The notes under the pieces were generated by a model. The model did no database searches. It worked only from the letters and a program-made list of their open reading frames with translations, and was not told where the DNA came from. A DNA stretch of 64,000 nucleotides from Buxus sempervirens. Lineage: Eukaryota > Streptophyta > Magnoliopsida > Buxales > Buxaceae. Made by a program: the position numbers and the translations under genes. The DNA lies in the NCBI GenBank assembly GCA_947561395.2, contig OX387185.1, forward strand, positions 38,792,213 through 38,856,212. The letters run 5' to 3'. Below are positions 7,097-39,701 of this stretch, piece by piece. Every line of letters begins with the position of its first letter. The stretch's first letter is position 1.

Positions 7097-9249
7097 GCCT
7101 GCATATTCTGCCATTGGATGATTAGGAAGAATCTGAAACGGATTTTACACGTCACTCCTTGTGGTATTGAAGATGAAATGTGGTAGATTTGTTAAAAAAA
7201 AAAATTTTATTGATATAATACTTTCTTTTAGTTGGTGATATTTGTATGGACCAATGTTCACACCATTGGTTTTGGTGTTGTTTCAGTGACGTTCTTGGAT
7301 GATGTTTTTGTCAAAATTTTGTCGGCACGACACTCATGTCGTTATGTTGAAAAATTCTAAAAATTTAATAAATTGAAAAAAATCTAAAAAAGTTGTAAAA
7401 ACATTATAAAGATTGGAAAACTTAATATCAAAGTAATGATAATGATGTATTATTATTGATAATAGTAAAACATGTGTGTACACATTATGTTATGTTGTAT
7501 ATTATAAAAAGAAGGCTTACGCCTTCTTCTCTCAACTAATAGAAGGAGAAAACTTCTTTTGCTTGTATGTTTTGACAGAAGAGGTGTGTGAAGGTGATGG
7601 TTGTAGCGATGGCAACGATGACGGCAAAACCAAGTATGCTCCCTTTTTTCATCTCCTATCCTCTCTCTCTCTCTCTCTCTCTATCCCCCCTCTCTCTTTT
7701 AAGTTTTTTTTCTTTTCGAGAAGAGCTTGGCGACAGCAGAACAGTATGCCATCCTCCCCCTATCCTCTGACCCCTTTAATTTTCTAGATTTAGACCAGGT
7801 CTGACCCTACAAATGGTAAATCCCCATTGGATGCCTAATATGTGCAGAATCAAGTAGAATAATGGATTTAAAAGCTCTCTTAAATTAAATTTCTTTAGCT
7901 ATTTACTATATAAAAGCGTTGTACTAATTTATGTTGTAAGTCAATTTAGTATTAAGCTAATAAAATGCATGTAGTTCGCTGTATGGTGTTGAACTATTTT
8001 TGTTGAAGTGAACCTGTGTAAATATTGATTAGTCCTGTAAGGTTGGACCAGGTCTTATTTATCAATTCTTGGCTGGCAACTAGGTAAATTATCTACTCTT
8101 TGTAAACCCTATAGTTTTATCAGGATCTACATAAATAAATTGAATTGACTTTTTGGATCTTACCATGTGGAGTTTACGTTTTATGTGTTTGGATATGATT
8201 TTGTGCATGTTCAAGACAGTGATTGAATAAATGATATCAGGTTATAATAATTGTTGTGTTGGTGTGCTGATGATGATTGTAACAATTCTACGATTGATGA
8301 CGATAATGATTCATTAGTGGAGTGCAGCTTGATGAGGTTGGACAAGATGGCTGATTGAGGAAAAAAGGATTTTTTTTCCTTCCTTTTTTATTGTTTGGGT
8401 AATAGGTGGAGGTTTAATCAGGCCTTTGTTGGTTCTTATGATCATGTTTTGCTTGGACCTGTATGATTGTAGCCTAGTTGGGATGTTTTCATTTCTTAAT
8501 TGATTGGTCAGCTTTGAAGTAACTCATGTAGTGTTTCAGCTGTAAAGTCTTGAACATAGGCTATTAATTCATTAGCTGTTAAGTTGGAAGTAATTTACAA
8601 ATACCTGCTCAGTTGCAACTGCGTGGTTGATCTGCTTATCGAGCAAGAGTTGGTATTTATCTGTTTTCCATTTCATTACACCAAGTCTTAAGCTTTTAAT
8701 GTTTTCCAAGTATGGTTTGTTTAGAAAATGTATCATTGGTGGACGATGTTGCTGATTTCCTAGCTCTTGGAGTGAGGCTGAAATGGAATGAGGCTATATT
8801 GCGTTTGAAATTGTTTTCATGTACATGTGTGATATGATCAATGTGGATAACCTAAGTCTAGGGACTTTGGTTTCTTGTTATCAATGAACTCGGTCGTAGG
8901 CTCTCGTGATAATTTGTGGTTTTTCTTTTTCTTCCTCGGGGATGCATGCCTCTATGGTTGTCTTGAGACAGGGAGAGCTTCATTGAGGTTAACTGATTAA
9001 TGTTTTTGTGGTTTTGTACTTAGATTGGATTGATGACATTATCGGAGATACCCAAAAATTTTGGTATTTTAACTTAGCCTTGCTTGTTTAGTTTGGGAAC
9101 ACTTGTATAGGAATGCTGCTTGCCATGATCTGTTACCTTGGAAGGGAGTTGAGCTTTCTTGCTTTATTTGGATGTCGTGGAAATTACTTGGAATTTAAAG
9201 TGAGTGACTTTGGTGACACGCTTTGTAGTTGGAAATTTGATTGGGTAAA
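7097..9249. other. Rest of duplication copy A, no gene
   Basis: T-rich intron or UTR-like DNA, shared with 44512-46668. No open frame resembles a known protein. A (CT)n run lies at 7661-7682 and has a counterpart near 45090-45110 in copy B. Confidence 0.6.
7661..7682. repeat. (CT)n microsatellite
   Basis: Eleven CT dinucleotides followed by further pyrimidine-rich sequence. The corresponding run in copy B is shorter. Confidence 0.9.
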
Positions 9250-10513
9250 TTAGTTTATGGTTTTTATACATTAAAATAGATCTTTTAATGAACAATTGAT
9301 TTAATAAGACTTCTAAGTTGATTATTCTACTGTCCTTTACTGACATCAAGCTTGTGTAGTTTCTCAAGCTTCTTGGTGGGCGCAATATTGGAAATAATGG
9401 TTAACTAGCAAAACTATGAATACGTGTATAAGTATCGTTTTTACTTAAAATGTGTGGGCAAATGTTTACTCTTCACTTTATTCTGTTAAAGAATATTATT
9501 ATATACTTAAAAGCAAATTTTTGATTAACTTTGTCCCCAAGAACTCCAATCGTGTCAAACACTTCCAAAGTGATGAGTTGGGAAATTTTCTTTTAGATTA
9601 CAGATATTGAAGTCTAGAACGTCTTTTCACGAAGACCGAATTTTACCCTGGAGTATTTTTAGGGAGTCAAGATTTTTGATCTTATCCTCACCTACATTAT
9701 TGGTCTAGAGAAGAATCAAGACCCGTGGATGAGACTCATCTATTAATAAGAAAAGAAATCGTGAGCAGAGCACAAGAAATCTGTGGAGGCGAAGAGGATT
9801 GCTTCACATACCAATCATAGAAGGGCAAAGAACACTAGAAACAAAAGCAAAAGGAAATGGAATCTTGAATAGAAAAGTCTAAGATGGACGGAAAGTCTGT
9901 TCACGTACCATCCATCACTATCTTGCTCACTGATTTGAGCAAGATAGTGATGGATGGTACGTAAACAAATGGTACTTTCCATCATAGTAGATAAGAGCGA
10001 AATACCACAAGACCCAAATACCTCGGGCATTCTTAGCCCAAGGAAATGGAATTTTGATAGAAATGTCAAGATGGACGAAAAGTCTTTTCACGTACCATCT
10101 TTCTTTTGGATCACTATCTGTTCACATACCTTGGGCATTCTTAGCCCAATGAAATGGAATCTAGATAAAAAAGTCAAGATGGATAAAAAGTCTGTTCATG
10201 TATCATTTTTCTTACAATCATTGTCTTGCTCACTGAACAAGTGGCAGTCACCATCGTAGTAAATAAGAGCATACATTGGGCATTCTTAGTTCAAGGAAAT
10301 GGAATCTTGATAGAAAAGTCAAGATGGGCGAAAAGTCTGTCCACATACCTTTCTTTCAGATCACTATCTTCTCACTGAAAAAGTAGTACTTACCATCATA
10401 GTGGAAAAAAGAAGACCTAGATACCTTTGGCATTCTTAGCCCCATCACTAATTCGGTGGCATAACATCACATGTTACGGTTCAAAGGCAACGCTATGCAG
10501 CCTATGCTAGAAC
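9250..10513 (+). repeat. Left arm of large inverted repeat
   Basis: This arm reads as the reverse complement of about 11345-12560 over nearly its whole length, with scattered mismatches and small indels. The inner ~600 bp hold about four repeats of a unit that starts with AAATGGAATCTTGATAGAAA and continues with AGATGGACGAAAAGTCTG, spaced 107-185 bp apart. Short open frames through these repeats translate to recurring words such as KWNLDRKVKMD, but this follows from the DNA repeat. I see no sign of a real protein. A transcript across both arms would fold into a long hairpin. Confidence 0.85.
9903..9962. repeat. Perfect 27-bp hairpin with 6-bp loop
   Basis: Bases 9903-9929 are the exact reverse complement of 9936-9962, with loop CTGATT. 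The right arm of the large inverted repeat has this sequence only once (near 11900-11935), so the hairpin arose in the left arm by a local inverted copy, the usual mark of template switching. Confidence 0.9.
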
Positions 10514-21838: not shown

Positions 21839-22341
21839 CTTAAAGTCTTACTTCTCAACGATAGTTAGATGAATGGCTCAATTCCTCCAGAGTTAGGGAA
21901 ATTGAGGCTTCTTGAAGTGCTTTTCTTGTCCACGAACAACCTCAGTGGCGTTATTCCTGCTTCTCTTGGCAATTTGAGCAACTTGGGTATTCTGTATCTC
22001 CATGGGAATAGCCTTTTTGGTCAAATTCCACCTGAAATTGGAAATCTAACAAAGCTTATTAATCTAGCCTTGTCCTATAACCATCTGACTGGTTCCATCC
22101 CTTCCTCATTTGAGAACTGGAAAGAGCTTACCCTTTTATACCCCTCTAACAAGTCACTCTTTGGTTCTATTCCTGTAGAAATCAGCAATTTGAAATCTCT
22201 TAGTGATCTAGAATTAAGCACCAATAACTTCAGTGGCACTATTCCTACTTCTCTGGGCAATTTGAGCAACTTGGATATGCTGTACCTCCATCAGAATCGC
22301 CTTTTTGGTCAAATTCCACCTAAAATTGGAAATCTAACAAA
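21839..22341 (+). pseudogene. LRR receptor kinase pseudogene copy 1, LRR part
   Basis: After a stop just inside the segment the frame from 21869 stays open for 171 codons. It gives about six 24-residue plant LRRs of the LxxLxLxxNxLxGxIPxxLGNL type, for example NLGILYLHGNSLFGQIPPEI. Homology to copy 2 ends after AATCTAACAAA at 22341, where a long LTR begins. The rest of the ectodomain, the transmembrane helix and the kinase are absent from this copy. Confidence 0.88.
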
Positions 22342-25313
22342 TGGTGTAGGTAGACACCTATTGATTTTTGGTCTGCACCAGTGATTCTGGATAAGTGACC
22401 CGATTACAACCCAGGGAAGTCCTTGAACACCCTGGGTTGCCCCACTGAAATGGGTTCCCTTAAATTAGTTGGATATAATGGGCTCTATTATATTATTTTT
22501 TATTTTTTTTATCTTCTTTTCTAATTTTTATTTTTATTTATATATACAACAAATATTAATCTATATGTATAAAGTCTACACAAAATTGTGTCTTAAAGAA
22601 AAGCAATTTAGGTTAATGCCAACATGTATCATTTTGGGTCTGTTCTGGCCCCTCAGGGTCTGGCCCAATTTAGGTTAATTATGTCTTTATAAATTCCTGT
22701 GAATGAGTCTGCATGTGTGGACCCTATTGGAAAGCCCACTAAATCCTAATTAGGCTTGCGAAAGCCTAAGTCCCAATTTGGGTTAAAACTGATCCTAGAA
22801 CCCTTTAGGATTTGGTTAAATTCATGTTTCCTATTCCAAATGGAATCTATGAAAAGAAAAGGAGGGTGGACCCTGTTGGAAGACCAAATAAATGAATAAA
22901 TAACTTAAAGCAATCCTAAAAGAAAGGTGGTGAGTAGATAATCAAAAAAAAAAAAAAATGTTGGAGACCTCTCTCATTCCCAATTTCGGCCTTACCAATT
23001 CTCCCACTCAAGAGATTGCAAAGTTCATAAAATCCAAAGTAAAGATGTATAAATCTAAAAATGAATAAATGGAATTCAATTAAGCATGTTATTATTATTA
23101 TTATTTTTTTACTTTTTCTCTAAAAAAATTAAGAAATGGAAATTAGGGGTTGTCTAAGAAGGTTAAGCATGTTAAGAAAATTAAGCATGTTATTTAAGAA
23201 AGGATTAAGGAAAGGGCTAAAAGAAATTAATAAAATTTAAGAATGTTAAGCATATTATCTAAAATAATTAAAGAAAAAAATTAGGCATGTTAATTAAGCA
23301 TAATAAAAATAATTAAGAAATTAAGAACAATTAAGCATGTTAGTTAAGCATATTATCTAAAAAAAATTAAGAAAAGGATTAAAGAAATAACATGAAAGAA
23401 ATAAAAGAAATAACAAATGAAAGCTAGGGATTATTAAAAAGGTTTTAAAGAAGGGACTAAAACATGAAATAAAATAAGTTCTTTTTAAATCCTTTAGTTT
23501 TCAGAATAACAAATTAGGCACAATAGTTTATCAAATTCTCAAAACTCAACCCAAATATTCATTCGTTCAAATTAAAGAAAACAGCAAATTCTCTTTGCTT
23601 GACCTTCCTCATCTTTCAATCCTTCCCCTTTCTTTTCACTCTAATCTCTCTCTATTTCCTCCCAACTCTCAAACAAAAGAAAAAAAAATAAATTAAGAAC
23701 AGCCGCTGGTGACTGTCCAACAGCCACCTGTGGCTGTTCATCTTCACGAACCAGGCTTAGCCATTTCGGCTGAGCCAATCCCCCATCAATCCTATACCTC
23801 TCTTATTATCAAAGCACTTTAAATTGTGAGGATGGTGTTGCAAAATAAAAATTCACTACATGCCAAATGAGTTCAGCGGTGACCGAACATGGTGTTGTTC
23901 TGTCACTTCTGAACACCACATCTATTCTTTTTTTTTTTTGTTCTTTATCTTTTTTTTTTGTTAAAGTTTTTTCTTTGTACATCAGACATCTAGAATTCAA
24001 ACCTAATTATCACACTTGCTGGAAAAAAACACAGGTTCGGCCATGCTTTGGATCATCTTACAGGTTCGGCCATGACTGGTTGTTTCTGATAGGGTCAATT
24101 TGCAGGTTCGGCCATAACAGGTATAACAACACTTGCATTATTGTTCAGACATGAACAACTTGTAGGTTCGGCCATAACAGGTATAACAACATTAAAAAAA
24201 ATACAGGTTTGGCTATAGCAAATGGATTATCATATTTTTTTTATTAACAATTCAACAACACTAAAAAAATTCAGATCTGGCCAGATAAGAGACATGCTTT
24301 GTATTATCATACTTTCATTTGACAATTTAACAACATTGAAAAATTCAGATTCGACCATAACAAGTGAATGCTTTGTATTATTTTCATTTGACAATTTAAC
24401 AACACTAAAAAAAAAATACTTGATTAAAGAATCAACAAAAAAAATAGAAGGAAAAAAAAACCTGGTATGGGATCGATTTCTCGGAAATTGGTAAGCTCAA
24501 CTCCGGATGTTCCCCCCCTTTTTCTTGCACAAACTCCTTCCTCCTCTTTTCTCACTTCTCTTATTTGCTCTCTTTTTTTTAGATCATTCTCCCCTTTTTG
24601 CTCCCAACTTCTATCCTTTTTATAAGAGAATTCCCACCCCTTCAAATTCTTAACTTCTAACATTTCCTCTTCCTCTCTTAAACTCCTAAACCTTTCCTCT
24701 CCCTAACTTCTCATCTTCCTCTCTTAAACACCTAAACCTCTCATCTCCCTAACTCCTCCTCTTCCTTTCTTAAACACCACCACTTATTTAGGTTTGGTCA
24801 AAGTCTAATTTGTCCAATATGTATTTTTTTTAGGCTTAGTCTCAACATCCCAAGAGAACATGAATTGGACCAATTCGTCCAACTCATTTCTCTTTGTTTA
24901 TTTTTTTTTATTTTCTTTAAATCTCAAAACTGTTATTAAATTTTATTTATTTGCATAACAAACCCCATTAGGAAACTTATCTTATTTACTAAAAGAAACC
25001 CAAAATTTTTAATTATCATTGGTCACATGGCAGCCACCATGGCGTACACGTGGCTGCCATGTGGCACCCAATTTTGGTTTTATCAAAAATCCCCAAACTA
25101 TCCTTTAGTTCCTTTATTCATAACTTAGCCGTTTGAGATCCGATTTCAGCACGGTTTGGTGCATCGGAATCATCTTAGAATTCTCTTTATTATGGGCTTG
25201 TTATTTTAAAAAGATGGGTCAACTATAAAAACCTCGATTTACGTGCCCACATATATGCCTGTTTAAGATATGCTTCTTGGGCAATTCTATGGTGCAAAAA
25301 TGGGGTGTTGACA
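22342..25313 (-). mobile_element. Long LTR joining LRR sequence to downstream flank
   Basis: On the minus strand it starts TGTCAACACCCCATTTTTGC at 25313, resembling the start of the LTR at 31068. Its other boundary reads TAGGTGTCTACCTACACC, which matches an internal stretch of that LTR, so the copy is incomplete. The flanks do not form a target duplication. It is LTR-type fossil sequence without genes. A TATA-like TTATAAAAA lies near 24615 on the minus strand, GGTTCGGCCAT words recur at 24030-24215, and a 14-bp perfect inverted repeat lies at 25024-25063. Confidence 0.7.
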
Positions 25314-28026: not shown

Positions 28027-31000
28027 ATGGGATCACCGACATTCGGGAAAACAATGGCCCTTCCATGTCTTCTCTTTACGGTTGTGTTGTTTTGTGCTCC
28101 TTATTTTGTTTTTGCTTCCTCTAGTCCTTCTCTAACTGCAGAAGCGAATGCTCGCCTTAAATGGAAAGCCAACTTCGTCTAAGCCCAGGCTCTCACCTCC
28201 TAGACTTCTCTTCCTAGTAGCAATTCGTCTTCTCCCCTGAAAAGTAGCCCATGTCTTTGGTTTGGAGTTTCTTGCAACCAGGCGTGAAGCGTCGCCAGAA
28301 TAAATTTAATGAGTATAGGCATGCAAGGTATGCTGCATAATTTCAACTTCTCATCTTTCCCCAACCTTGCCTATGTTGATCTCAGTCACAACACACTCTA
28401 CGGGACCATCCCAGCTCAAATCAGTAATCTCTCCAAGCTCATCTATCTTGATTTGTAGGGGAATATGATATCTGGAACAATCCCATAATATATTGGTCTG
28501 TTAAGAAGCCTTAAAGTCTTATATCTCCATGATAATCAGATGAATGGCTCAATTCATCCAGAGTTAGGGGATCTAAAGCTTCTTGATGATCTTTCCTTGT
28601 ACAAGAACAACATCAGCGGCATTATTCTTGCTTCTTTGGGTAATTTGAGCTACTTAGGTTTTTTGTACCACTATGGCAATCGCCTTTCTGGTCAAATTCT
28701 TGTAGAAAATGGAAATCTAACAAAGCTTATTGACATAGAATTGTCTCATAACCAGCTGATTGGTTCCATCCCTTCCTCATTTGAGAACTTGAAATAGCTT
28801 ACCTTTTTATTCCTCTTTAACAACAAACTCTCTAGTTCTATTACTGTAGAAATCGGAAATTTGAAATCTCTTAGTAACTTGGATTTAAGCATCAATAACT
28901 TCAGCGGCGTTATTCCTACTTCTCTGGACAATTTGACCTACTTGGGTATTCTATACGTCCATTGCAATCACCTTTTTGGTCAAATTCCACCTGAAATTGG
29001 AAATATAACAAAGCTTATTGAGCTAACCTTGTCTTTTAACCAGCTGACTGGTTCCATCCCTTCCTTATTTGAGAACTTGAAAGAGCTTACCATTCTATAT
29101 CTCGGTGAGAATCGCCTTTCTGGTCAAATTCCACCTGAAATTGGAAATCTAACAAAGCTTATTGACCTAGAATTGTCTCAGAACCAGCTGATTGGTTCCA
29201 TCCCTTCCTCATTTGAGAACTTGAAAGAGCTTACCTATTTATTCCTCTTTAACAACAAACTCGTTGGTTTTATTACTGTAGAAATCGACAATTTGAAATC
29301 TCATAGAAACCTGGATTTAAGTGTCAATAACTTCAGTGGTGTTATTCCTACTTCCCAAGGCAATTTGAGTGAGTTTACCATTTTATATCTCTATAAAAAT
29401 CAGTTCTCTGGTTCCCTCCCCCAGGAACTAAGCAACCTGGCAAATTTAGTTGTATTAGAACTTGATTACAATGAGTTCAACGGCTCACTACTGGACAACA
29501 TATGCTGTGGTGGGTCACTTCAAAATCTTACTTCAAGCAACAACCATTTCATAGGTCCTGTCCCAATAAGTTTGATAAACTGCATAAGCTTAACAAGAGT
29601 TCGTCTTGAAGGAAACCAATTCTGTGAAAACATCTCCGAAGGCTTCGGTGCATACCCCAATCTGCGATATATTGATCTAAGCCGCAATGAATTTTATGCT
29701 GAAATGTCTCCTACTTGGGGCGAGTACCCACGTTTGACATCATTAAACATGGCTGCAAACAATATCACAGGAGGGGTACCACTTGAGCTTGGGAATGCAA
29801 CCAAACTAGAAAAACTTGTTCTTTCTTCAAACCATTTAGCTAGTCAAATTCCAAAGGAATTGGAGAGGTTGACTTCTTCGTTGATCCTAAGAATGCATGA
29901 TAACCATCTTTCTAGTCACTTACCCCCACAAATCAGATCATTATCCAATCTTAGTGAACTTGATAGTTAGCAAACAAGCTCGATGGATCGATACCCGACA
30001 GAATAGGGGACTGGCATAGACTTATTTCAATGATCTTGAGCAATAACAGATTCAGTGGAATTTTTCCAATTCAGATTGGAAAGATTCTAGATCTTAGTTA
30101 GAACTTACTCACCAGAGTAATACCATCACAAATTAGCAATCTACAGAGCCTAGAGAAACTGAACCTCTCCCACAATAACCTTTCTGGTCTTATTTCATTG
30201 GCTTTTGCGTACATGGTCAGCTTATCATCTATTGATTTATCCTACAATGAGTTAGAGGGGTCCCTTCCTTTAAGCAAAGTATTTCAAAATGCTACAATAG
30301 AATCACTCTAAGGGAACAAAGGGTTGTGTGGGATAGTAAAAGGGTTGCCCCCTTGTCCACAACTGCTCATGCCAAAAAGGGCTAGAAAGTCCTTATTATG
30401 ATTGTATGTCCTCTGGGAGCACTCTTTCTCATCTTAGCATTTGTTGGAGTATCCATCCTTACTAGAGGAAGAAGAGTGCTGAGAAAGGAAGAGTAGAGAT
30501 GCAAAAGCAAGATCTATTGCAGAAAATAACATACGAAGACATCATTGAAGCTATGGAGGACTTCAACAGCATATATTGGCATTGGAGGCGGACAACATGG
30601 AATTGTTTATAGAGCAATTCTACAATTAGCTTAGATTGTAGCTGTGAAGGGACTTCATCCTTTAGGGGATGAATAGATAGTGCATGAGAAGTTTTTTCGA
30701 AATGAAGTGCGAGCATTGATTGAAATACGCCATTGCAACATTGTGAATTTCTTTGGCTTCTATTCTCATGCAAAAAATTCATTTTTGGTTCTTGAGTATC
30801 TTGAAAGAGGTAGCCTCGCCAATATGCTAAGCGGTGCTGAAGAAGCTAGAGAGTTCGATTGGTCTAAAAGGATAAATGTCATCAAATGTGTGTCCAATGC
30901 TTTGGCTTACATGCACGATGACTGTCAACCTCCTATTATTCATCGGGACATATCAAGCAAAAATGTTCTATTGGATTTAGAGTACGAGGCTCACATATCT

Positions 31001-31062: not shown

Positions 31063-31179
31063 ATATGTGTTAGTACCTCATTTTTGTGTACCAAAAGTGC
31101 CGAAAATGAAAATCCTAATTGAAAATTCAAACCCGAAAGGGTCAAAAAGTTGACTTTTTATCTGGTGTAAACCAGTCAC

Positions 31180-31870
31180 CATACTTTTTATCATTGGAAA
31201 GAGGATTTTGATACGATTACAACGCAATTGAGTTTGCTCAAATCGGAGTCCAAATGAAAAAGTTATGAGCTGGTCAAATCTGGGAATAGAAGAAATAGAC
31301 TTTTTGCTAAACCCCAGATCAGTTCTCCGATATGGTCCTAGCAGAAAGATCACTTCGACACGATTCCAACGCAACCAAATTTGCTGGAATCGGGGTCTCG
31401 GATAAGGAGATATGAGCAGAACCGGCTCCCGGGGAGCAGTTTTGACTTTTTGCTAAAAGCTGAATCAGTAGTTCAATTTTATACCAGCGGATAGAGATTT
31501 CCGACACAATTCCAACGCAATTGAGTTTGCTGGAATCAGACTCCGGATGAAGAAGTTATGGGCCGGTCAAACCTGGAAATAACATAAATTGGCTTTCTGC
31601 TAAACCCCAGATCAGCTACCCAAATTTGTGTCAGTAGAAAGAGCATCCCGACACGATTCCAACGCAACTGAGTTTCCTGGAATCAGAGTCTTGGATTGAA
31701 AGTTATAAGCAAAATTAGCACTGGGGGAGCAGTTTTGTACTTCTGCTAAAAACCCAAATTTGCTGTTAAACTCTAGCTCAGTGGATAGGGGATCTCAACC
31801 TGATTCCAACGCCACTAAGTTTGCTAAAATCGGATACCAGATAAAAGATTTATGAGCAGTCAAAATCTTG
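31180..31870 (+). repeat. Tandem array, 146-147-bp unit, five copies
   Basis: The word GATTCCAACGCAA, or a close variant, starts at 31215, 31362, 31508, 31655 and 31802, which gives spacings of 147, 146, 147 and 147 bp. Alternate units resemble each other more closely (one type carries GGTCAAAYCTGG, the other GGGGAGCAGTTTTG), so the array looks like a ~294-bp dimer repeated. Confidence 0.88.
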
Positions 31871-32196
31871 GGAAAATCTACACATGTGGCAAAGATTGGA
31901 GAAATGACATAAATAAAAAATCAAAGAATAAAATAAGAATATTTTGTAAATATCTACTAATTAAATTTAATTAAATAAAAAATAATATAAAAAGAACATC
32001 TAAAATGCATGTGTGGAATGTGTTTAAAAGAAACAAAATCTAAAAGAATAAAATAATAGTATATGAAAAAAAATCTAAAATTTAAATTAAATAAATAAAA
32101 ATAATAATAATAAAATTTTTTTTACCGCATGTGAAGAATGCGGTGGGACACTTGTAAAGGAAGATAAGATTGAATTGAATTCGATCTTATCAATTT

Positions 32197-32298
32197 GTAT
32201 CCGACATATATGGCCGGATACAAATAAGAGATGGTGTATCGACCATATATGTCGGATACACATGTAAATGTGTGTATCCGACATTATAGGTCGGATAC
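32197..32298. repeat. Array of three palindromes at 38-39-bp spacing
   Basis: Imperfect palindromes with half-sites like GTATCCGAC and GTCGGATAC lie at 32197-32221, 32236-32259 and 32274-32298. They end 15 bp before the TATA box of the LTR at 32313. Confidence 0.88.
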
Positions 32299-32312
32299 AA
32301 AAAAAGTTTTGT

Positions 32313-32320
32313 TATAAATA
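32313..32320 (+). promoter_or_regulatory. TATA box of the long LTR
   Basis: TATAAATA sits after the palindrome array in an otherwise suitable context. Transcription would begin around 32345, inside the LTR. This is a relic of the element's own promoter. Confidence 0.55.
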
Positions 32321-33788
32321 GGGGGCAGCAGCCCCATTCTCAAGGTTGACTGGCCCCCCTCCTCTCCCCCAAACCTTGTCCGACCCTCTCTCCTATTCCC
32401 TCCTTTCTCTCTTTTCTATGCATTAAAAACCCACCCAAGCTTCACCCAATCATCCCTCTACCATTCCTTCTTCACTTCAAACATAGGAAGGAGATCTGGG
32501 AGAGCCTTTGGAGAAGAAAGAGGTGCTGTCCAGTCGTGTCTTGGCTTCAAGAGGAGTTTAGCACAACTCAAAGAAAGTTCCCAAGCCCAAGTGAGTTCCT
32601 TTGTATCCTTTGTTAAACATACTTAAAAATAAATGAAATATGAGCATTTCAATTTTTTTTATGCCATATACCTACTGTTCTCTCATGTTATGATTTGTTG
32701 GTTCATTTTCTTTTTGTATATTAGCTCCAATGGTAAGGGGAGGGCTTGTGTTTAATCGGAAAGGAGAGAAAGGGGCTACTCATGATCCTTTAAGTGTCAT
32801 TTTTCAGCATATATTTTCTTTTCTTTGTTTGTTTATTGCTATTATTTATACGGGGGAGCATGTTCCCTCTCTTATTCTTTAATCCCATGTATCTCACGTG
32901 TAACCCCCACTTACCCCTTCTTTAGACTTTTCTTTAAGTTAGATGGATGTTTTAGGAAAATATAATTTTGCTATGAATTGTGTGTGGAGTGCATACTGAA
33001 TTTTATTTCTATTATTTATTTTATTTGTGCATAGTTTAACCAAGATTTTAAGCATGCATGTCATTCACTAATCATTTATAAATATTTAGAGCATGCATAA
33101 TGAATGAAGCCACATGTTCATATACATCAAGTATATTCATGCATTAAGGTCTTTAAAGCTTGCCATATTTTTGCCTTTTCTTTTTACTCATTAGTACACT
33201 TCACCCTGCTCCTTTCCCTCTTTTATCTTGCTGTCCCATGCAATTTTAGTCATTTTTTTTACTTCATTTAGGTTGTTGTTTTTTTACTTATAGGGAATTA
33301 ACCCCATCTTTCTTTACCTATTCCATGCATAGGCTCACATACCCAAACATTAGAAGCATGATCAGGTTTATATATGCATGTAAATATTTATTTGAGTTCA
33401 TGTTCACAGCCAATGCACAGACATATACATGCTTTGTAATGGAGCATGGCTACTTAGGCTTTGTGATTGATTTGCTTTTGTTATTGTTAATTGCTGTTTC
33501 TAGGCTAAAAGGAACCAAAGCAGGGACACTCAGTCCCTATTCCTTTGCCATGTTTGGTTTATAAAGGAATGGGGAAGGTAGGCCCCCAATCTTCTCATGT
33601 GCTTTGATTTTTAAACCCCAAAAAGAAGCCTTTCAAGCTCCATTCGGACCATTGTGGGCCCACACTGGGGCCCACATATACCCTAAGCAGCCCATAGACC
33701 TATGGAATCAATTTCTTTTGGAAAATTGTAAAAAATGAATTTTTAATGCCTTACCGAAAACTCAGGTCGGTTATTAGGGTTTTCTAGC

Positions 33789-33891
33789 TTAGCCGAAAAT
33801 CAATTTCGGCTAAACCAGAAATATAGTGCAGCCGAAAATCAATTTTCGGCTGCATTGTATTTCCTGTTTAGCCGAAATAAATTTTCGGTTA
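33789..33891. repeat. Second palindrome array, 39-40-bp spacing
   Basis: Palindromes with half-sites TTAGCCGAAA/TTTCGGCTAA, GCAGCCGAAAA/TTTTCGGCTGC and TTAGCCGAAA/TTTTCGGTTA lie at 33789-33813, 33828-33853 and 33868-33891. The sequence differs from the first array but the spacing is the same. Confidence 0.88.
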
Positions 33892-34941
33892 CATGAAAGA
33901 ATTTCCAAAAATCAGTTTTTTTAATGCTTGTTAATTTATTGAATTGTTTTAATAAAACTGGGTGAACCAACAGGGTTTCCGGTTCACATGGGTCCTGGGC
34001 TCCTAAGCCCAATTTGATTCATTAGTCGGCCTCCTAACGGGGCCCACTCAACCCAAGAACCTCTTTAAATTTAAATAAAGATAATTAAAATAATTTAAAT
34101 GGGCCAAACCCTTTGAGGCCCATCAAAGACCAAAGTTGATACATGTAGGTTTAGTTTAGGTTTGGTTTGGCTGAGACCACGGGCCAAGGCCTGTCGGGCC
34201 CACTAAGCCCATCAACCCAGTCAAGAAGGGTCCAATACCCTGATCCGTCAAATCTTGGATCATCCGGTCCGAGTCTAGGCTATGGGCCCCAAGCCCAAGG
34301 TCTAGCCCACTTTGGAAATTAAATAAGATAAACAAATAAATCATTTGGCTACTAGGTGAGGTCCACCCAATGGGCCCGCCAAACCAGTCCAGACCCACTT
34401 TTACATAAAACCTAACTTAAATGCCACTTAAACCCTAACTAAAACTAATCAAATTAACCAAAGCCCAAAGGGCCTTATAGGGTCAGCTAAGGCCCATTAG
34501 AGGTTATGTGGGCTACATCTAGTCCACTAGGGTATCCGTGGACCTTCCAATGGGGCCACTCAATCCGACCCAGGTCACTTAAATAATCAAGATAAAATCA
34601 AACTAAAGGGACCCACACCACTCTAGTGGTCCCCACCAAGACTCAAAAAGAAACATGCTGGAATAGGATAGGGTGAGTATGGAGTTGACTCGAATTAAGG
34701 AGATTCGAGGGACCCGTCAACCGATGGGGCGGACCGGGGTGTTTTCAGACTTCCCCGGACCGTAACTGAGAGCTTAGCCAAAATCTCGAAAAGCCGCAGA
34801 CCAGCAATTATATATTAACCTAGGCACCTAGGTGTCTGCCTACACCCCATCAGGTGGTGGCGACTCCTATTTCCCAATTTCCCTTCGGAGGTACGCACAC
34901 CTACAAGGAACCACCGTGCGATTTCACATGCGCACAGTATG

Positions 34942-36901: not shown

Positions 36902-39701
36902 TGTGAGACACGGGAAAAATCACCGGAGTGATCATCCCTCCGTCAACACACGGGCTCAACGCAAAATTGGGAGAGTCGCCACCATTCAGAATTTTGGGGT
37001 GAGAATGGACACCAAAATCATAAAAAATAAGCAAAAAGGGTTAAAAAGCAAATTCTAGGGTAAACATAACCCTACTTGAAAATTAAATCCAGAGATGGGT
37101 AAGGGGATTAGATTATGAACGGGGGAAGGTGTTAGGCACCCCCATTCACCCACACAAGGTGGTTGCCAAGTGTTTGTTCATGCTAAAAGAAAATAGGAAG
37201 CTTGCTAAAAAATCATGAAAAGCCTTGAAAAAGGAACAAGTGTATGATATATTCACATGAAGATCCAAATGGATTTTAGATCTTCTCTTATGTCAATATC
37301 ATTTCTGAAATGTCATAAAAGGATAAAAAATCCAAGCAAAAGAATGTCCAAAGCCAAGTTGAATCAAATCCGGAAAATTCGGTGAAAAGTAATGCCATTT
37401 GTCTTGAAATCATTCAAATCCAATTTTAAATCAAATCAAACCAAATCCATTTGAAAGATTATCGTAAATAATAGTCTCATTCAAAATTTCAAGTAATTCC
37501 GGTTGAAAACCTAGGAGTTATGCTCCTTGAAAGTTGCTGCAGGGGATATTTAAAAGTGATAAGTAGGCAACTTTGGAAAATCACCTAGAAAAATCCACTC
37601 CATAAAAACCCTCGAAATTTGGTGTGATTGAAGTCTGTATGGCCATATTTCAAAAGAAACTAGCCTCATACAAAAACTCATTCGGATGTGTCTTGGGTGG
37701 TCTTCCGAACAGGCCCCGAAGATCACAGATTTACCCAGAAAAGTGCCATTGAGCAGTTCTGAGTAAATCGGCTACCAATAATTCAAATGGAGTCAAAAAA
37801 TTATGAAACCAACTGGATTTAAAAATAGACTCATAAATGAGTGCCCAAAAACAAAAATCATTCGAATCGGACTTAAAACGAACACATGGCGCTCCATCGA
37901 AGTGACAAGTTCTGTATTTGAACCTGAACTGTCCAATAAACTTCGACAGAGAGGTGTCAAAAATCCGCTTGATAGAAATTAATGAAATTTCGTGGACATA
38001 AACTAGACAGCCTCACCTTTCCCATGGTTCTGAAATCACTCCAAAATTCATCCGGACGATGAAGTTATGGGTGTCCGAAGTCGGGGTACAGTTGCTGTCA
38101 AGTTAAGCCCTTTTTGAGTAAAACCAATGCAAAAATGTGACAAAGTGTGTGCAATTCGTGCAAGATGAACATAAATACTTTAAAAATCATTCAAAGACAT
38201 TCCAGAATTGATTGAGGCCATTTATTTCAGATTTATCACAATAAATGCAATAAACCCAAAATATGAGCCTATCCCGCCAAAATAGTGCTATGTGTGTGCA
38301 AGTGTGAAAAACCATATAAAATCAATGGAACAACATAGCATGCATACATATTCATCAAAATAAGGTTCTAAACAGCCTAGGGTTCCGTTCCATTATCGTT
38401 TCCCTCTGTTCTCTCTCCCCGTTAAACACGGTTCTTCGAGATAATCAAGGGTACTTTGAATATGAAATGGTTTACAATCAATCAAAAGGCTTTATGCTAC
38501 ATAGGTTCTAGTACTAGGGTCAATCCCCAGTCTCGTTTCTCCTAGATCCCGCCTTTACGTTTTACGGCTAGGGGGAGTCTCGAGATACTTTGAGCCGGGG
38601 AAGGGTTTTCACACACAAAGAAGGCCTTATTCTACAGAAAGGTAGAAGAAGAGATCTAGATCTAGGAATGTACAGACAGAAAATAAAAGAAAAGTTTGAG
38701 GCTTACCTGGGTTCTGGATGCACTTCCGCAGCGGTTTCCTTCTTCTCTTGGAGTTCTTCTTGGCGAGAATTTAAAACAAGAGTTGATTGCCATTTGCTTA
38801 AGGAGGAGCCTCCTATTTATAGGCAAAGGCTAGGGTTAGGGTTGGTGAGAATGGTAGACACAACATAATGTCTATAGCCCACCAGCCTTAACCCTAGGGC
38901 TATTTCCGAGATTTCCCCTCATTTAATGAGGGATATGATGGTAAAAGTGAAAAGCTCTCGGAAAACCCTAATTTTGAGCAAAACTTATGTATCCGGCATA
39001 TCAGGCCGGATACACAAGGGCTTTAATGTATCCGGCCTATGATGCCGGATACACTAAAGCTTCCTTGTATCTGGCCTTTTCCACCGGATACAAAGAGGAG
39101 TACTTGTATCCGGCCTGAGTTGCCGGATACAAGGAAAAAATCCTTTTTTTCAAATTTTAACACAGGCAATACTTATTGACATGTAATATTGTTTAAGTAA
39201 ATGTCCTCGTATTTTTTAATCTCCATTTACTTAAGATATTACATGTAAATAAGCAAACACCCCCCCATTTGAATCCATTAAAAATAGTTCCAGACCCAAA
39301 TTCCAAGTGAATAAAAAGTTAACTTTCCAGTTCTAGGCAAAATTCTGATTTTTCAGGTCTGGACAAAAGGTTCAATATGTTAAAACCAAGGTATTCGTCA
39401 AGATTTAAAATCTCAAAAAATTTTTTTATGCAATAACATGGCTAAAAACCTGATTACTGGGAAAAATTATCTTGAATTCTGGCTTTAAAAAATATTTCAT
39501 TTTCTGGGGTCAAAAGTCAACAAAATTCAACCGGAAAAAGTTGACTTTGCACAAAAGATTGAATTCGGGCCTTTTCCTTTTCCGTTTTGGATTCAAATGG
39601 GTTAAGTATCTCAAACCCAATGCAAAGAATTGAAAATTCCAATAAAATATTTCTCTCCTTCAAGATTTATCAAAAAATCGTGCAATTTTGGGGTGTCTAC
39701 A
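36902..39701 (-). mobile_element. Long solo LTR (2.8 kb), minus orientation
   Basis: On the minus strand it runs from TGTAGACACCCCAAAATTGC to CCCGTGTCTCACA. The target duplication GTCTC is exact (36897-36901 and 39702-39706). The related DNA at 26290-26310 shows the empty site CAGTCTCATGTT. No genes. Like the LTR at 31068 it has GGTGGCGACTC near its 3' end and a TATA box (TATAAATA, minus strand, about 38814-38821). It is an independent fossil insertion of a related family, probably Ty3/gypsy, and looks fairly young. Confidence 0.85.
38989..39130. repeat. Four 25-bp palindromes at exact 39-bp spacing
   Basis: Units at 38989-39013, 39028-39052, 39067-39091 and 39106-39130 have half-sites GTATCCGGC and GCCGGATAC around a variable centre. 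The 14-bp spacers differ. On the minus strand the array lies about 170 bp upstream of the TATA box of this LTR. Confidence 0.92.

Follow-up and report, generated by a model that had tools for sequence, protein, structure and literature searches.

The window studied here, 64,000 nucleotides of Buxus sempervirens DNA (assembly GCA_947561395.2, contig OX387185.1, positions 38,792,213 to 38,856,212, numbered below from its first letter), contains two long terminal repeats (LTRs), LTR A and LTR B, which lie in opposite orientation and carry arrays of short palindromes about 39 bp apart. The question raised by this locus is what may read such arrays, and what keeps their symmetry and spacing. A preliminary description, whose coordinates and pitches for the arrays of both LTRs were all confirmed on re-reading the sequence, had proposed that a dimeric factor binds the arrays, whose spacing would be constrained, or, alternatively, that RNA hairpins are formed. 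The first proposal is supported by the geometry of the units, by the higher identity of stems compared to spacers and by the distance to the TATA box, and the constraint on spacing appears likely; hairpins are not supported as the selected feature, since changes in the palindrome arms are uncompensated. Judged from sequence, the arrays of this Ty3/gypsy group are probably clusters of binding sites, mostly located near promoters, for a homodimeric DNA-binding protein.

A 25-bp palindrome repeated every 39 bp

The repeated unit is a 25-bp palindrome, in which 11 bp separate the seven-base cores of two inverted half-sites (GTATCCGR or GTAGCCGAAA). The genome, 676 Mb, was searched for such arrays, and matches were seen by eye on 14 contigs; the genome-wide match listings used below cover the first places of contig C1. 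Perfect GTATCCG-N-CGGATAC dyads, sought with a gap free to vary between 3 and 33, were found 30,992 times per strand, a palindromic dyad being counted once on each strand, against 49 for the reversed-pattern control. The span of the dyad is exactly 25 bp in 96 of 100 listed matches, and 38 bp in the other four, because of an extra half-site inside the unit.

Consecutive double units, with the pitch left free between 24 and 62 bp, occur 22,366 + 23,690 times on the two strands of the whole genome, while the reversed control gave 0 + 1. Those with a pitch of 37-41 bp and a central gap of 10-12 are 22,049 + 21,893, that is 43,942 of 46,056 (95%). The recurrence of a 38-40-bp pitch in other copies, proposed as a check in the preliminary description, was thus found, far above the reversed control. 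Chance palindromes were ruled out as an explanation, the reversed-pattern controls being near zero.

Neighboring listed dyads less than 300 bp apart are 39 bp apart in 22 of 29 cases, 77-78 bp in six and 103 bp in one; this tally, like that of the gaps reported below, is based on 100 rows of the TATA-box list, all distinct places of the T- and G-dyad lists and the first 60 of 100 hybrids. Within the loci fetched from the genome (L numbers), a distance of 39 bp was observed in 135 of 150 cases, counting all LTR A copies and loci fetched twice. From these loci, 19 array segments were picked, leaving out repeated LTR A copies, doubly fetched loci and arrays with damaged units, such as B1 of the window; their spacer is 14 nt long in 37 of 40 instances, the remainder measuring 10, 13 and 15. 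In LTR B, the 38-bp step of the first array is due to a base missing inside unit 2, and the 40-bp step of the second to one extra base inside unit 2, the spacer being unaffected in both. A step of 103-104 bp splits the 39-bp runs of L018 (1361-1606), L034 (6278-6522) and L035 (3643-3888).

The second array of LTR B had been described as built on quite different half-sites. This proved wrong: the GCCGAAA array reads GTAGCCGAAA...TTTCGGCTAC within the same 25-bp frame as the GTATCCG arrays, so that the half-sites are changed and the frame is shared. Dyads having two half-sites of the GTAGCCGAAA type (GG dyads) number 1,240 per strand (control 30) and hybrids of the T and G types 653 + 635 (controls 8 and 9); by eye, all 100 listed matches of each kind span 25 bp. 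Hybrid and GG dyads also adjoin at 39 bp, e.g. at C1:18445185 (hybrid) and 18445224 (GG). The presence of two unrelated array types in LTR B was therefore rejected, given the single frame and the two types found side by side at 39 bp. The genome-wide dyad counts (TT 30,992, GG 1,240, TG 1,288) depart from random union; this coupling of the arms was not used as evidence of compensation, as it fits free mixing within a G-rich subpopulation (G about 0.66, by our own arithmetic). With a narrower GCCGAAA-type pattern, 42 + 37 matches were obtained, and 0 + 0 in the control; of these 79 matches, seven (e.g. C4:3314784) belong to a separate GC-rich repeat, where GCCGAAA/TTTCGGC palindromes follow each other with a 42-bp step, unlike the LTR arrays.

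Promoters, carrier elements and an antisense reading frame

As the preliminary description had noted, each LTR of the window has a TATAAATA box downstream of its GTATCCG array (Table 1). Genome-wide, CGGATAC followed by TATAAATA within 4-34 bp was found 688 + 697 times, against 39 and 38 in the controls. Among 100 listed matches the gap measures 11 bp in 53 cases, 12 in 36, 13 in six, 14 in two, 15 in two and 30 in one, so that 89 fall at 11-12 bp. One class of LTRs has its last unit 11-14 bp ahead of the TATA box; in LTR A and its near relatives the distance is about 155-168 bp, and in L047, whose first unit went undetected, the box lies 205 bp from the array. For the array at L012:79, no TATA box was found.

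At four places of contig C1, identical arrays are located 20.1-20.7 kb apart (e.g. 3409339 and 3429750), in the manner of LTR pairs. Further arrays lie about 3.7, 15.6 and 19.7 kb into the first two of these elements and 15 kb into the other two, one of which has another at 19.5 kb; counted from the matches listed, LTR arrays, of 3-4 units each, and internal arrays would together provide about 8 or more units per element. In the first of these ~20-kb elements (L049), a centrally located piece of 1.2 kb matches a gypsy-type reverse transcriptase (RVT_1, 7.8e-30, Pfam), its frame having a stop just upstream of the scanned piece. In L041, pol lies on the minus strand, with the integrase core (rve) at 8619-9443 (1.2e-12). 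A Copia or Sirevirus carrier was rejected on these grounds, as the reverse transcriptase piece matches RVT_1 and L041 has a pol in gypsy order with rve. The arrangement that marks the Tat/Ogre-Retand elements, a gypsy pol together with antisense open reading frames (ORFs) between pol and the 3' LTR, was found in L041, and the carriers are a large group of Ty3/gypsy elements, probably Tat/Ogre-like. At C1 3385807 and 3395344, identical arrays are just 9.5 kb apart, perhaps marking a relative of the ~20-kb elements that has been shortened and is non-autonomous.

Two plus-strand ORF regions, antisense to pol, follow the end of pol in L041, all being assigned to the same element by adjacency. The first, which ends at 2412, contains two pieces that match the plant mobile domain (PMD; 6.4e-8 and 0.0013); the second, which starts at 2883 and holds a nested solo LTR A, matches DUF7745 (2.1e-9, above the Pfam cut-off) and PMD (4.8e-5). 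Every PMD score falls under the Pfam cut-off. A four-unit array is located between the two regions, with units at 2613, 2651, 2690 and 2729 (pitch 38/39/39), followed after 12 bp by TATAAATA at 2766-2773 and by an ATG 110 bp past the box. The best 150 of 5,110 candidate relatives of the ORF show 86-100% protein identity; by eye, 26 of these 150 contain a stop and 124 none. The best 40 of 1,633 candidates for the array-to-ATG stretch are 293-304 bp long, and an ORF match lies directly downstream in at least 14 of the 40 (L041 included, 45 of the 150 protein rows being compared), which indicates that the combination of array, TATA box and ORF is a recurrent module and not an accident of L041. 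When six stop-free pieces of the ORFs of this one element were compared to Pfam at E up to 1, no match to TRP28, DUF1985 or DUF287 was obtained, nor did any solved structure resemble the ORF at E up to 1.

Binding protein, host factor, tandem relics or hairpins

The two arms of a palindrome may agree because they pair with each other or because both match the same reader. Pairing was evaluated on 66 units from 21 array segments, the 19 mentioned above and two from the listings, by comparing the arms of each unit with arms swapped within the array or among all units. The respective values are 0.82, 0.86 and 0.51 at position 8, 0.76, 0.73 and 0.46 at position 9, and 0.98, 0.99 and 0.75 at position 4. 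When positions 8-9 are pooled, own arms pair in 104 of 132 cases against a within-array shuffle mean of 104.2; at positions 10-12 they pair in 79 of 198, lower than the shuffle mean of 91.5. Across the seven arm bases 39 changes are one-sided and three two-sided. Because own arms pair as within-array swaps do, and better than all-unit swaps, they agree through a half-site shared by the whole array and not through pairing within each unit. Half-sites are indeed array-specific: GGC is found in LTR A and L035, GAC in L013, L016 and L038 and GCCGAA in the G arrays, while the arrays of L014, L018 and L034 are mixed. Array-specific half-sites are what a trans-acting dimer would predict, and, together with the one-sided changes, they favor a homodimeric DNA-binding protein over selected hairpins. 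The compensatory stem changes that the preliminary description had suggested looking for did not appear: arm changes are uncompensated within units, also in the LTR A copies.

Comparison of adjacent units within arrays revealed that 0.88 of the letters are identical in stems, 0.59 in loops and 0.50 in spacers, the value for shuffled spacers being 0.28. The ends of the spacer (A...T) prolong the dyad; over its inner 10 nt identity is 0.38, against 0.27 after shuffling. Spacers as alike as stems, which simple tandem duplication should leave, are seen in L018, whose last three units are near-identical tandem copies. Maintenance of the pitch was evaluated assuming about 1.4 changes per site and the ratio of insertions/deletions (indels) to substitutions found in LTR A outside the array (308/3,201). 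Neighboring units are of equal length in 17 of 21 pairs, for which P is 3e-5 at this ratio, 0.012 at a ratio of 0.05 and 0.45 at 0.02, the units in this test not being independent by descent. The pitch is likely to be under selection, beyond what is inherited by tandem duplication, and part of it is inherited through 39-bp tandem duplication, as in L018. A length of 39 bp corresponds to a non-integer number of helical turns, so that stacking of bound proteins on the same face of the helix is not implied.

Dyad length, pitch, TATA gap, the higher identity of stems over spacers and the recurrence of the module all support a reading as binding sites. A homodimeric protein would contact the two inverted half-sites of each 25-bp palindrome, and dimers may bind cooperatively along the 39-bp array, activating the nearby promoter. 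As the combination of array and TATA box is also found ahead of the antisense ORF, one factor could act on both the LTR transcript and the antisense ORF transcript.

Several observations weigh against this reading. No TATA box lies within 230 bp of the G arrays of the fetched loci, and the box of LTR A lies 167 bp off its array; not all arrays are thus close to a promoter. Tandem copying also makes units alike, and the units and spacers of L018 are near-identical. The pitch test reaches significance only where indels are assumed not to be rare. A pairing test on the C1 list, performed on 65 of 100 rows (60 with pitch 39 and five with pitch 38) after leaving out by eye the repeats from partner LTRs and lookalikes, gave for 40 distinct inner sequences an own pairing of 0.88 against 0.72 after across-array shuffling for pair 8-18 (reached by 7 of 2000 shuffles) and of 0.55 against 0.39 for pair 9-17 (reached by 39 of 2000). 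With 14 well-separated sequences this excess becomes weak, being reached by 169 and 299 of 2000 shuffles, and the inner pairs of the list show no pairing excess over shuffles; the test cannot separate the dimer from the hairpin model. Finally, young LTR A copies do not keep their stems better than their spacers. In 19 such copies, the substitution rate is 0.0327 at non-CpG stem positions, 18 of these 36 changes being a single letter found only in the window, 0.0226 at stem CpG, 0.0113 in loops, 0.0075 in spacers and 0.0625 at non-CpG positions in the rest of the LTR. Most stem changes in these copies are single C-to-T or G-to-A substitutions. Because the copies were selected for their resemblance to an array-bearing query, array divergence is biased low; for this reason, and because stems are no slower, the rates were set aside as evidence of conservation. 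Evidence for conservation is drawn from comparing units with one another and families with one another.

We know of no plant factor having this geometry, a literature search on LOB-domain proteins having found nothing. Ordinary sites for host transcription factors, with the 39-bp grid playing no special role, are nevertheless a possible explanation, if a doubtful one, as LTR promoters are reported to bear repeated host-factor sites often (PMC2829016, available passages). Loosely spaced sites of this kind would not show so uniform a grid and dyad length, and the half-sites are array-specific.

The arrays could also be relics, in which 39-bp units spread by unequal exchange and both pitch and symmetry are inherited, without present function. 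The near-identical units and spacers of L018 and the slight similarity of inner spacers within arrays fit such an origin, and no selection on the pitch is required if the indel to substitution ratio is 0.02. Spacers are, however, far more diverged than stems, equal unit lengths are kept beyond expectation at the ratio measured in the LTR A flanks, and neither the fixed TATA gap nor the recurrence ahead of the antisense ORF is accounted for, which makes relics an unlikely answer.

Least probable are selected RNA hairpins or cruciforms, e.g. packaging signals or a source of hairpin-derived small RNAs: array RNA folds far better than shuffled sequences (z -12.75 for A, -9.54 for B) and the palindrome-rich regions of Sirevirus LTRs are described as small-RNA hotspots (PMC5311732, PMC10760457, available passages), but any palindrome folds, the arms are kept in sequence beyond mere pairing, and the missing compensation led us to reject the hairpin as the selected feature.

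The window LTRs and comparable systems

The features of the window are reported in Table 1.

Table 1. Coordinates of the two LTRs, their palindrome arrays and TATAAATA boxes in the window.
Feature	Position	Strand	Description
LTR A	36902..39701	-	2.8 kb; looks like a solo LTR; 5-bp flanks GAGAC/GAGAC
LTR A array	38989..39130		four 25-bp palindromes, half-sites GTATCCGGC, starting at 38989, 39028, 39067, 39106; pitch 39/39/39
LTR A TATAAATA box	38814..38821	-	167 bp downstream of array
LTR B	31068..34936 (end approximate)	+	start from matches in several loci; 3' end by eye from flanks
LTR B first array	32197..32298		three palindromes, half-sites GTATCCGAC, starting at 32197, 32236, 32274; unit 2 one base short
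LTR B TATAAATA box	32313..32320	+	14 bp past first array
LTR B second array	33789..33892		three GTAGCCGAAA-type palindromes starting at 33789, 33828, 33868; same 25-bp frame

Both ends of LTR A were matched within a few bases in 18 of 19 other fetched copies, L036 stopping early. Comparison by eye of the flanks of the window copy and 18 others revealed identical 5-bp sequences in the window and in 13 of the 18, a one-letter mismatch in two more, and none clear in L034, L041 and L045; most of the LTR A copies examined are therefore solo LTRs. In L034, LTR A runs on into what we take to be a primer-binding-site-like sequence. The leader of this LTR A element (L034 1-1091 and 1334-1436) contains a minisatellite-like repeat and a palindrome array of its own, with half-sites mostly GGT versus GGC in the LTR of the same locus. 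A second, inverted copy of LTR A lies near the first in L030, L036, L038 and L040. Telomere-like repeats (TAGGGTTAGGGTT on the plus strand) are located in the window at 38831-38843, about 10 bases ahead of the TATA box that LTR A has on the minus strand, and at 38890-38899.

LTR B is probably a solo LTR; its flanks, ATATG/GTATG, are alike in four of five letters (by eye). No TATA box is found within 230 bp of its second array. An inverted repeat, GATAAGATTGAATT...AATTCGATCTTATC, lies at 32163-32191, just upstream of the first array, and ends resembling it also flank the arrays of L013-L016. In L021, about 390 bp separate the end of one LTR B (1-136) from the start of another (525) that has the same orientation, a distance too short for a normal internal region. 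Elsewhere in the window, at 21869-22381 and 28798-29970, leucine-rich-repeat-like ORFs were recognized by eye, with a mutual DNA identity of 82-89%.

Comparison to known systems is based on the available passages of the cited papers. Upstream of the TATA box, LTRs of Sireviruses contain repeated palindromic motifs whose core is CGG-CCG, found also ahead of env in the env-carrying members; these motifs were termed Sirevirus-specific and absent from classic elements (Bousios et al. 2010, PMC2829016). The arrays described here share with them repeated CCG/CGG palindromes upstream of the LTR TATA box and further copies inside the element, and a Citrus Sirevirus box, AATCCGGCTWRCCGGATT, resembles the GTATCCGGC type. 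They differ in that the core order is CCG then CGG, unlike most of the listed Sirevirus motifs, that Ty3/gypsy elements with 3-5 units per array replace Copia elements with at least 8 copies each, that a rigid 25/39 geometry is found where no fixed pitch is given for Sireviruses in those passages, and that one internal array precedes an antisense ORF, the internal Sirevirus boxes preceding env. The arrays work like Sirevirus boxes but are not members of that class, their carrier being Ty3/gypsy.

Antisense ORFs between pol and the 3' LTR are known from Retand and Grande; for maize Grande a promoter of its own was reported for the antisense ORF, and a regulatory DNA-binding role was suggested (PMC11963269, PMC7264820). 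The position is the same here. The Retand ORFs are, however, of the TRP28 type, whereas those scanned here, pieces of one element, are DUF7745/PMD-like; Retand LTRs measure 315-1,194 bp, against 2.8 and 3.9 kb here, and its internal regions 7.4-12.9 kb, against an LTR-to-LTR distance of 20-21 kb. The available passages make no mention, for Retand or Grande, of an array common to the LTR and the antisense-ORF promoter, such as is seen here.

In the VANC/VANDAL system of Arabidopsis, a transposon-encoded protein binds clustered motifs which co-evolve within the family (PMC5735166, PMC10398659). Both cases have in common short motifs that are clustered in non-coding regions of a transposon and change together within a family; VANDALs are instead DNA transposons, with DUF1985/DUF287 proteins, whereas no DUF1985 was found in the ORF pieces here, and no fixed pitch is described in those passages. 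The plant mobile domain proteins MAIN and MAIL1 share the PMD type with the PMD-like antisense ORFs but belong to host genes; the genes depending on them share a 'DOWN' promoter motif, whose recognition is only suggested (PMC7156037).

The statement of the preliminary description that nothing comparable was known holds in part: palindromic boxes upstream of the LTR TATA box are published for Sireviruses, and in the open-licence literature searched neither a 39-bp pitch, nor Ty3/gypsy LTRs carrying such arrays, nor an array common to the LTR and the antisense promoter was found described. What is new is the occurrence in Ty3/gypsy elements, together with the rigid 25/39 geometry, the fixed distance to the TATA box and the second use at an antisense gene.

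The geometry and this second use call for a dedicated binding protein. By analogy, the antisense ORF might itself encode the dimeric factor reading the arrays, as an activator or anti-silencer driving both the LTR and its own gene; this suggestion is tentative and rather unlikely as it stands. Such a self-encoded factor would work like VANC or retroviral Tat through the module of array and TATA box (25/39/11-12 bp), and, if real, would mean that LTR retrotransposons have a system of the VANC kind. A binding factor should be easy to seek given the uniform 25/39 grid, with the antisense DUF7745/PMD-like ORF as the first candidate, and a factor of this kind could explain the role of antisense ORFs in these elements. 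Palindromic boxes in LTRs had been reported as peculiar to one Copia lineage; their occurrence in giant Ty3/gypsy elements, with stricter geometry and also at a second promoter within an element, suggests a recurrent solution and a single trans-acting factor.

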